Assembly (NCBI GenBank): GCA_024398875.1
Contig: JAKSIJ010000001.1
Coordinates: 248,001-312,000 of the forward strand
Source: Fibrobacter sp.
GTDB lineage: Bacteria > Fibrobacterota > Fibrobacteria > Fibrobacterales > Fibrobacteraceae
Direction: 5' to 3'
DNA length: 64,000 bases
Shown here: positions 6-10,839 of the stretch, one piece after another
Layout: the number at the start of each line of letters is the position of its first letter
Numbering within the stretch: the first letter of the stretch is position 1
Made by a program: the position numbers and the translations under genes
Notes under the pieces: generated by a model
Databases searched by the model: none
Seen by the model: only the letters and a program-made list of their open reading frames with translations
What the model was told of the DNA's origin: nothing

Positions 6-47
6 GACGCCTTTAGGTTACCTCCTTTACCTGAAGGCGTCTTTTTT
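6..47 (+). terminator. Rho-independent terminator of an upstream + strand gene
   Basis: A 13-bp stem (6-18 pairing with 29-41, one G-U pair) with a 10-base loop is followed by six T on the + strand. It would end a + strand transcript entering from the left edge. The T run overlaps the stop codon of the convergent radical-SAM gene. No A run precedes the stem, so it is not an obvious terminator for the minus strand. Confidence 0.85.
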
Positions 48-1122
48 ATTGCCCAATCAGAGTGTTCGCCGCCTCGTCGCAAATTTCACACAGCATTCTT
101 TCGTGAGTGCAAACCTCCGGCGACACGCCTTCAATAGAACCTGTTGTATAAAATGATATGCAGGAACATTCATGGGCAACGCAACGATATCGAAGCGCGC
201 AGCCCTCACATTCCGCCTTATCCGTTTGCAGATAAGTTCTCATTTCCTGCGTTTTCAATTCATCCATTCCCGCAAAGACATTACCCATTCGATATGGGGC
301 ATCTGGCTTAGAGGAAATAAACCTAGAACAAGGGAAAATAGCGCCATCCGTAGCCACATAAATTCCACTTGCGCAAGCACTACAGGAATACTGGCGATAT
401 CTGGTTTTCTCTGTAACCAATTTTACTTTATCTTCAATAGTTCCCAAATAAAACGATTCTTTCGCTTTTTTTCGTTCCACCCAAAAACGAGCCATTTCCT
501 GATATTCCAATTTCAAGGAATCAAAATCCGCTTCCGTCCACTTTCCGTCAAAATCAACAGCCGTAACTACTCGTTTAAATCCCTGTTCATGAAACCATTT
601 CACAGAATCCGCCAGACCAAATAAATTGTCATGGGTCACTACCGAAAGGACCATAGCATCCATAGCGACAAATTTTGGAAGATTCGGTTCAATTGCACTG
701 AAACTCCCCTGTCCATTAACAAGGTGGCGGCAACTGTCATGCCTTTCTCTAGAACCATCCAGAGAAAGCAATATTTTAATATCTTCTTTTTTCAAGAAAT
801 CAAAAATTTCATCCGTCAATAACGTTCCATTCGTATTGATGGAATAACCCACACGAACTTTTTTATCAACCTTGTCCGAAAGGGATTTTGCAATCGATAC
901 GGCTTGCCGAATAGCTTCAAACCGAAGTAGCGGCTCGCCCCCAAAAAAGGTAATATGCAAATCATTCTGATTTGCTTGCAAAGCGCGCTGAAACGCATAT
1001 TTAATGGATGCTTCCAGCACTTCATCGCTCATTATTTTTGAGCGAAGCCCATGTGTTTCTCGATAATAGCAGTACCTACAACGGAGATTACAACCTTCCG
1101 TCAGGCTTAAAACCAGATTCAT
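46..1122 (-). CDS. Radical SAM/SPASM peptide-modifying enzyme
   Basis: A 358-residue radical SAM protein. The 4Fe-4S/SAM motif CNLRCRYC lies at Cys11, Cys15 and Cys18, followed by a GGEPLL motif (about residue 62) typical of SAM binding. The C-terminal ~110 residues are rich in Cys (pairs such as CSAC, CEGC, CEIC) and form a SPASM/twitch-type domain that binds extra Fe-S clusters. Enzymes of this layout (anaerobic sulfatase maturases, sactipeptide and cyclophane synthases) modify proteins or ribosomal peptides. The ATG overlaps the stop codon of the upstream small lipoprotein gene (TAATG), so the two are translationally coupled and the lipoprotein is the obvious substrate candidate. No sulfatase gene is nearby. 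The family is firm; the substrate is inferred. Confidence 0.88.
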   Translation of the reverse strand: MNLVLSLTEGCNLRCRYCYYRETHGLRSKIMSDEVLEASIKYAFQRALQANQNDLHITFFGGEPLLRFEAIRQAVSIAKSLSDKVDKKVRVGYSINTNGTLLTDEIFDFLKKEDIKILLSLDGSRERHDSCRHLVNGQGSFSAIEPNLPKFVAMDAMVLSVVTHDNLFGLADSVKWFHEQGFKRVVTAVDFDGKWTEADFDSLKLEYQEMARFWVERKKAKESFYLGTIEDKVKLVTEKTRYRQYSCSACASGIYVATDGAIFPCSRFISSKPDAPYRMGNVFAGMDELKTQEMRTYLQTDKAECEGCALRYRCVAHECSCISFYTTGSIEGVSPEVCTHERMLCEICDEAANTLIGQ

Positions 1123-1577
1123 TACGCAATCAAAGGAATTTGAATGTGTCCCACAGACGTAGCCATACTAACTACAGGTATCGTATATTCCTCAGGATCT
1201 ATAATAAGACGTTCTTCCTGCGAATCAGCAGGAGGTTCGTAATAAAGACATTCTGCCTCCGGAGCCCAAGGAATACAGTGCAATTCGTGAGATGAACTAC
1301 TCTTCCCCACAGAAGAACTGCTAGAGGATGAACTTGTCGGTGTTGACGAAGAGCTGCTCAATTCCTTCTCAAGCAGCGAGGAACTGCTTTCCATATCTTC
1401 CGCAACAGAGGAGGACAATTCAGGATTTTCAAGTTCGGTTTCTGTTACAGAGGCACTATTTTCCCCTGAGCAACTAACCAGGGCCGCAGATGAAAGTCCA
1501 ACTGTTGCCGCAACAGCCAGCCGCTTTGCCAACGGCCATTCTGCAGAACCCAGAACTTTCTTCTTCTCGATTTTCAT
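1122..1577 (-). CDS. Small Ser-rich lipoprotein, candidate rSAM substrate
   Basis: A 151-residue protein with no family I can name. It has a charged N-terminus, a hydrophobic segment (about 19-35) and a lipobox LVSC with Cys36, so it is probably a lipoprotein. Residues 55-96 are an acidic, Ser-rich linker with runs of four to eight Ser. The last ~55 residues form a separate segment with Cys101, Cys110, a YYEPP motif and a hydrophobic IPLIA end. That tail would be the target of the coupled radical SAM enzyme downstream. A strong AAGGAGGT ribosome site precedes the ATG. It may be a surface-displayed modified peptide, or a lipoprotein whose tail is crosslinked. rSAM/lipoprotein pairs have been noted in other gut bacteria; I cannot confirm that this belongs to the same group. 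Confidence 0.75.
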   Translation of the reverse strand: MKIEKKKVLGSAEWPLAKRLAVAATVGLSSAALVSCSGENSASVTETELENPELSSSVAEDMESSSSLLEKELSSSSSTPTSSSSSSSSVGKSSSSHELHCIPWAPEAECLYYEPPADSQEERLIIDPEEYTIPVVSMATSVGHIQIPLIA

Positions 1578-9841: not shown

Positions 9842-10807
9842 CTAGAAGCCTTCGGAAAGCACCACCCGGAATCCCAGCATATGAGTCTTGTTCAAGGGGG
9901 GGGTCTTGGCTCTTTCCCCGGAAGAAAGTGCAGGAGCCTTATCACTCCAACCACCACCACGAACCACTCGCAAGCTTCCCGATTCCACACCCGTATAATT
10001 CTCTACGGATTTGGTAGGATAAGTACCATACCAGTCATTCACCCATTCCGCCACATTGCCTGCAACATCAAAAAGTCCCAAGGCATTGGGTATGTGCTGC
10101 GCCACCTTTACCGGTCCTTTACTTTGTGCGTAATATGCATATTTTTTCGCTTCGTCCGTATCCCAATAGTAAGTGGTACTGGTTCCGGCGCGAGCCGCAA
10201 TTTCCCATTCTATTTCCGTAGGCAAGCGGATTGATTTTGTGGAATAATCGATAGTCAAATCCTTCAAATAATTTTCCGCGCCCACAGAAGCGTACACATA
10301 GGCCGTATCCAAATTCAAGAGTTTTGAAGCCGCATTGCAGAACAGCACTGCATCGTACCAGGACACATTCTCCACAGGATAAGCCTCACCAGAATTGCTC
10401 TGTTGCGGAAGGTCTCCCATAACCGCTTTATACACGGCTTGAGTCACTTCTGTTTTAGAAATGGTGAAGTCATTCACCTTAAAAGTAATGGAGCCCCAAA
10501 CCATTTCGCCAGCGCCAACGCTCACCCAAGCAGTATCCTTGAACAGATTCCATACCGTCACCGTATCAAGTGCCACACTGCCAGAAAGGAATCCATCATC
10601 CAAAGAGGAATCATCGCCAGAAATACCAGAATCGCTGCTAGAAGAATTTTCACTTTCAGACGAGGAAACGTCCCCTGTAGAACTGGAGTTTTTTTCGGAG
10701 GGGGTTGGCACGATGGGGTTCATCTCGGCCTTGTCGCCATTGGCTGTGCAGGCAACAAAAGGCAGAGCCAGCGCCATCAACAGAGCTGCATTCAAAAGCT
10801 TTTTCAT
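9842..10807 (-). CDS. FGE/sulfatase-modifying-factor-like lipoprotein
   Basis: A 321-residue lipoprotein. After a signal peptide ending at Cys20 and an acidic poly-Ser linker (about 35-75), the protein is a formylglycine-generating-enzyme-like (SUMF1, PF03781) domain: KTEVTQAVYKAVMG, YPVENVSWYDAVLFCN, RLPTEIEWEIAARAG, GNVAEWVNDWYG and RVVRGGGWSD follow in the expected order. True FGE oxidises a Cys in sulfatases. Most secreted homologues of this fold have lost that activity and serve as binding or structural modules, and I do not see the paired active-site Cys here. The ATG at 10807 has an AGGAGATGAGCGT ribosome site; the frame upstream of it is not needed. Confidence 0.82.
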   Translation of the reverse strand: MKKLLNAALLMALALPFVACTANGDKAEMNPIVPTPSEKNSSSTGDVSSSESENSSSSDSGISGDDSSLDDGFLSGSVALDTVTVWNLFKDTAWVSVGAGEMVWGSITFKVNDFTISKTEVTQAVYKAVMGDLPQQSNSGEAYPVENVSWYDAVLFCNAASKLLNLDTAYVYASVGAENYLKDLTIDYSTKSIRLPTEIEWEIAARAGTSTTYYWDTDEAKKYAYYAQSKGPVKVAQHIPNALGLFDVAGNVAEWVNDWYGTYPTKSVENYTGVESGSLRVVRGGGWSDKAPALSSGERAKTPPLNKTHMLGFRVVLSEGF

Positions 10808-10839
10808 ACGCTCATCTCCTTCGTTTTCACACAAGCGTC

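Follow-up and report, generated by a model that had tools for sequence, protein, structure and literature searches.

Organization of the gene pair

Fibrobacter is a major genus of fibre-degrading bacteria. In the window, by which we mean the whole 64,000-nucleotide stretch of Fibrobacter sp. DNA that was analysed, a radical SAM (rSAM) enzyme and a membrane-anchored lipoprotein are encoded in one operon with the following features.

1122..1577, minus strand: partner lipoprotein of 151 amino acids, composed of an N-terminal motif, a lipoprotein signal peptide, a Ser linker and a 55-amino-acid tail
1554..1577, minus strand: leader-like n-region MKIEKKKV, common to the lipoproteins of the family
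1470..1472, minus strand: lipobox Cys36 (LVSC), predicted site of lipidation and of putative cleavage by signal peptidase II
1290..1418, minus strand: Ser-rich linker, approximately residues 54-96, with Ser at 24 of 43 positions
1125..1169, minus strand: conserved C-terminal motif SMATSVGHIQIPLIA, candidate modified region
46..1122, minus strand: radical SAM/SPASM enzyme of 358 amino acids; PapB is its nearest NCBIfam model (below cut-off) and CteB its nearest fold in the PDB
1069..1092, minus strand: CNLRCRYC, the [4Fe-4S]/SAM-binding motif
79..384, minus strand: SPASM-type auxiliary-cluster Cys region, Cys247 to Cys348
6..41, no strand: strong hairpin immediately past the rSAM stop codon (-22.2 kcal/mol, z -6.84)

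The stop codon of the lipoprotein gene and the start codon of the rSAM gene share one base as TAATG, in which TAA overlaps ATG, as the preliminary description of this locus had reported. Its account of the lipoprotein is also correct: the lipobox reads LVS-C36, the poly-Ser spacer covers residues 54-96, and the tail comprises exactly residues 97-151 (55 residues). Cys residues are located at positions 36, 101 and 110. The hairpin at 6-41 has a T-run on its plus-strand side and is possibly the end of the operon. Elsewhere in the window, a QueH epoxyqueuosine reductase (PF02677) is encoded at 2005-2709 on the plus strand, close to a divergent upstream gene, and a Ser-linked lipoprotein with an FGE-sulfatase domain (PF03781) at 9842-10834 on the minus strand.

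When we compared the enzyme with Pfam, Radical_SAM gave 68 bits (cut-off 29.5) and SPASM (PF13186) gave 18.9 bits, slightly under its cut-off of 21.5. The CNLRCRYC motif and the SPASM-type Cys residues (C247, C265, C305, C308, C314, C319, C321 and C338 in the window's enzyme) are each kept in 99-100% of 114 homologues. With a CX3CX2C motif, the SPASM Cys set and a barrel fold, the enzyme belongs to the radical SAM/SPASM superfamily, to which it had been assigned at the outset. The top NCBIfam model is PapB (NF047865), at 234.8 bits against a cut-off of 340; we rejected PapB membership by this score, and CX3D/E is not conserved in the precursors. The AlphaFold2 model (pLDDT 90.7) opens directly with the barrel, indicating that the window's enzyme has no RRE at its N-terminus. 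Its top fold match is CteB (5wgg; TM 0.82), which is also the best PDB match by sequence, with the sequence match beginning only at CteB residue 99. Other matches among solved structures are an anaerobic sulfatase maturase (TM about 0.8) and ChlB (9gm3).

Family distribution and partner types

Close homologues of the enzyme (47-58% identity) were found in 64 of 168 Fibrobacterota genomes and 4 of 41 genera, all from the single family Fibrobacteraceae, and none was found elsewhere in the phylum at E <= 1e-60. Other phyla were covered by one contig scan with the window protein alone, which detects close relatives only, and viral contigs contained only distant rSAM proteins, with best segments of 23-35% identity. 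Genomes carry up to four copies, and the window's own genome carries one. This genome encodes a further rSAM protein (G000:C4:76615-77655, locus L002), which scores 269 bits to TIGR04133, below the cut-off, and has no lipoprotein adjoining it within the stretch read.

About 110 loci were taken for neighbourhood comparison, and a tree was built from 113 enzymes, comprising clade W (the window and three relatives), clade A (49), clade B (22), clade D (34) and an outgroup of four from other genera. A Ser-linked lipoprotein gene lies upstream of the enzyme gene in clades W, A and B and in the outgroup, usually overlapping or abutting it, and up to four lipoprotein genes stand in tandem. Among 50 clade A loci, a count that includes a broken, B-like locus (L172) omitted from the 93 clade A lipoproteins described below, 28 carry two or more tandem lipoproteins, and 44 show the stop codon of the lipoprotein gene overlapping the rSAM start codon in an identical register. 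Under a strict search, the lipoprotein adjoins the enzyme in 76 of 118 copies, to which four outgroup copies are added. This recurrence speaks against the refuting case named in the preliminary description, homologous rSAM genes next to sulfatases or unrelated genes with no conserved lipoprotein. One sister clade, however, has no lipoprotein.

In this sister clade, D, nothing of the lipoprotein type is found upstream. Instead, 34 of the 36 copies with enough sequence are followed by a same-strand ORF of at least 69 amino acids starting 11-40 nt past the rSAM stop, compared with 1 of 77 in the other clades. These ORFs are small and Lys/Ala-rich, and nearly all are without a signal-peptide-like stretch. 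When the partner labels were placed on the tree of 113 enzymes, three changes were needed, compared with a shuffled mean of 32.7; the outgroup rows, scored here as without an upstream lipoprotein, actually have one that the search pattern missed. Judged from these gene neighbourhoods, partner type tracks the enzyme tree.

Two clade D copies are adjoined by a second rSAM gene of 688-694 amino acids (L162:3079-5146, minus strand; L166:7782-9867, plus strand). The one in L162 sits among several small Lys-rich ORFs, for example MGKTKTNTSKKTATTQLNVKGSALSTGSRFEGLKAQDVEWYDFSDTPWELVANTN, and these are perhaps another precursor system.

The lipoprotein is the sole gene cluster that recurs beside the enzyme across most loci, and no conserved transporter or peptidase recurs among their large gene clusters. 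Representative partners had no meaningful matches in Pfam or NCBIfam. We considered whether enzyme and lipoprotein are neighbours by chance, against which the tree test, the MKIEKKK hits and the tail motif (see below) speak; the pairing is beyond chance because it recurs across the genus. Dozens of species retain it, with a common start and a conserved tail, and so it looks like a new family of modified peptides. Our literature search, which reached few subscription papers, found no account of this rSAM/lipoprotein family, which is apparently undescribed.

Conserved segments and candidate chemistry

All the lipoproteins found start with M[KDNE]IxK, inside the signal peptide and most commonly as MKIEKKKV. 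Because the search demanded such a start, it left no freedom at positions 3 and 5; in an earlier search by the lipobox only, nearly all partners had these starts as well. When the MKIEKKK pattern was searched at the DNA level in 80 genomes of the genus, 52 hits were obtained, compared with none for the reversed-pattern control, and all 52 lie within 3.93 kb of an rSAM gene of this family; in the genus the pattern was found only there. A lipobox is present in nearly all of the family lipoproteins, where signal peptides and lipoboxes were called by pattern and hydropathy only. A precursor gene coupled to a modifying enzyme and a conserved leader, the general marks of a RiPP system, are found together, although the role of MKIEKKKV could also be confined to export or to some other function.

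At the other end, all 93 distinct clade A lipoproteins end in SM..T, while SM at that place is expected in 4.1 by shuffling, and this ending has a nearly invariant Glu (90/93) and Asp (92/93). The five clade W lipoproteins all end in SMxxx[VI]GH[IV]xxP, and when their tails are compared in pairs, the scores (42-69) all exceed the shuffle maximum of 38. Hence the tail does not vary freely, which the preliminary description had named as a sign against its proposal. The invariant residues of the tail motif use several synonymous codons, indicating that the motif is held by purifying selection. An SM motif is absent from the C-terminus of clade B and outgroup lipoproteins, which requires either a modified site that varies from clade to clade or one located elsewhere. 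The middle of the lipoproteins is Ser-rich and variable. Clade A is an exception, with a motif around DIPLSHE in 70/93; [VI]DIP[LKQ]S[HY]Ex[LI]SSxxxEALSSA lies between Ser blocks in roughly three quarters of the clade A lipoproteins, as in L068:3700-4206 (plus strand).

The cross-linking of tail Cys and aromatic residues proposed earlier finds no support as a general chemistry, since neither the two Cys residues nor the aromatics are conserved in the window's clade, where SMxxx[VI]GH[IV]xxP is. It has also to be considered that the enzyme is PapB-like and makes ranthipeptides whose tails have thioethers between Cys and Glu/Asp, for instance in C110-L-Y-Y-E. PapB is its top NCBIfam match, CteB, a thioether-forming SCIFF maturase, is its best PDB match by both sequence and fold, and the window tail contains one CX3E. 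However, the PapB score stays below the cut-off, the window's enzyme lacks the RRE that PapB is expected to use (PMC9413430), and both Cys and CX3[DE] are patchy. The mature part contains Cys in 3/5 clade W, 93/93 clade A (all in the tail), 7/22 clade B and 0/4 outgroup lipoproteins; only 1 of the 22 in clade B has Cys within the last 62 amino acids, and 11 of 35 clade D partners have Cys, at most one each. CX3[DE] occurs in 2/5 of clade W and 40/93 of clade A, and in none of B (last 62 amino acids), D and N. This distribution indicates that a Cys thioether is hardly the common reaction, and we regard the PapB-like reading as improbable, with a Cys thioether in clade A being possible. From the residues conserved, a change in the Met/Gly/His/Ile/Pro region would fit better, with a C-C cross-link, an epimerisation or another non-thioether modification as candidates.

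The conserved tail could instead be a recognition or sorting element, and the modification would then fall in linker segments such as Gly-centred G[IVDME][PIV] motifs. One chemistry would thereby serve both the lipoprotein and the cytosolic partners, and P[LI]xG repeats are seen in B and N. The Gly-centred pattern exceeds expectation in B (43 against 7.6), D (28 against 10.8), N (9 against 2.7) and A (29 against 13.2) without enrichment in control proteins from the same loci, but it was picked after viewing the same sequences, which are related to each other. In clade W it occurs 4 times against 2.0 expected, which is not significant, and the window lipoprotein has VGHI only, so we find this reading unlikely too. 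Least of all do we expect that the lipoprotein is a non-substrate, merely co-transcribed with an enzyme that acts on something else, such as a sulfatase. The fold does resemble anaerobic sulfatase maturases and clade D has no lipoprotein, but the enzyme reaches only 106.7 bits to the sulfatase-maturase model (TIGR03942; cut-off 349.45), an identity that we rejected, and only the lipoprotein cluster recurs beside the enzyme. In addition, the fact that lipoproteins occur in tandem and that the partner changes with the clade speaks for partner specificity.

Proposed maturation and relation to known systems

We consider it likely that the pair belongs to a family of rSAM/SPASM maturases in the Fibrobacteraceae that act on dedicated lipoproteins, whose n-region serves as leader and whose tail is modified before export. 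In the cytosol, the enzyme would use the first eight or so signal-peptide residues as the leader to which it binds, with no RRE domain involved, and would modify the C-terminal motif (SMxxxxGHIxIP in the window) by radical chemistry. Sec export would follow, then lipidation at Cys36 by Lgt, and signal peptidase II (LspA) would strip the leader. The product would be a modified peptide held by a Ser stalk at the cell envelope, probably on its outside. Going by the sequences, then, the lipoprotein is probably altered chemically by the enzyme before export, and the modified peptides are probably surface-displayed. The coupling suggested at first, with the tail as the likely substrate, is strengthened by its recurrence and by the fixed tail, but it does not extend to clade D, whose partner differs and lies downstream. 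A lipoprotein partner is not universal, since clade D enzymes keep the invariant residues yet have cytosolic Lys-rich ORFs as partners. More tentatively, and with some doubt on our side, we propose that the enzyme family has switched between lipid-anchored and cytosolic substrates while keeping its active-site residues, that a signal-peptide n-region serves as leader for an RRE-less enzyme, that a so far unseen non-Cys modification is made, and that the products are lipid-tethered peptides on Ser stalks.

If the proposed maturation holds, it would add to a major fibre-degrading genus a class of membrane-tethered products modified by rSAM enzymes, in which the signal peptide doubles as leader and the ordinary lipoprotein pathway acts as exporter and protease. 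With a clear N-terminal motif, a fixed tail and a partner switch, leader recognition, site choice and chemistry are directly testable, and the enzyme set is big enough for comparison.

Among curated systems, TIGR04133/TIGR04134 (rSAM_w_lipo/lipo_with_rSAM) are similar in that the rSAM protein takes its name from being associated with a putative lipoprotein, and FibroRumin (TIGR04136) in being an rSAM peptide maturase named partly for Fibrobacter. Comparison with these models, advised in the preliminary description, identified the pair with none of them: the window's enzyme scores 38.4 bits to TIGR04133 (cut-off 425) and 73.8 bits to TIGR04136 (cut-off 400), and its lipoprotein has no match to TIGR04134 (cut-off 39.8 bits). 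The leader, Ser linker and tail belong to the Fibrobacter family alone. PapB, in which Arg372 is essential (PMC9413430), is the closest curated rSAM/SPASM model, whereas the window's enzyme falls below its cut-off without an RRE and the partners have no conserved CX3D/E. CteB and ChlB are RiPP maturases with the same barrel and SPASM fold at about 20-24% identity; CteB has about 98 extra N-terminal residues ahead of the matched part, and the ChlB crystals (9gm3) also contained the leader region of the ChlB precursor. A lipid-anchored RiPP precursor, at first thought unusual, has a precedent in the bufferins, MNIO-modified RiPPs whose precursors carry Sec signal peptides, with lipoprotein signals in ~16% of Buf2 bufferins and preliminary evidence mentioned for the signal peptide as part of recognition (PMC12452194). 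However, the MNIO and its partner protein are another enzyme class, and bufferin chemistry is Cys-based. Compared with these systems, what appears to be new here is the enzyme family, its lineage-specific partner switch, and a signal-peptide leader used with an RRE-less SPASM enzyme.
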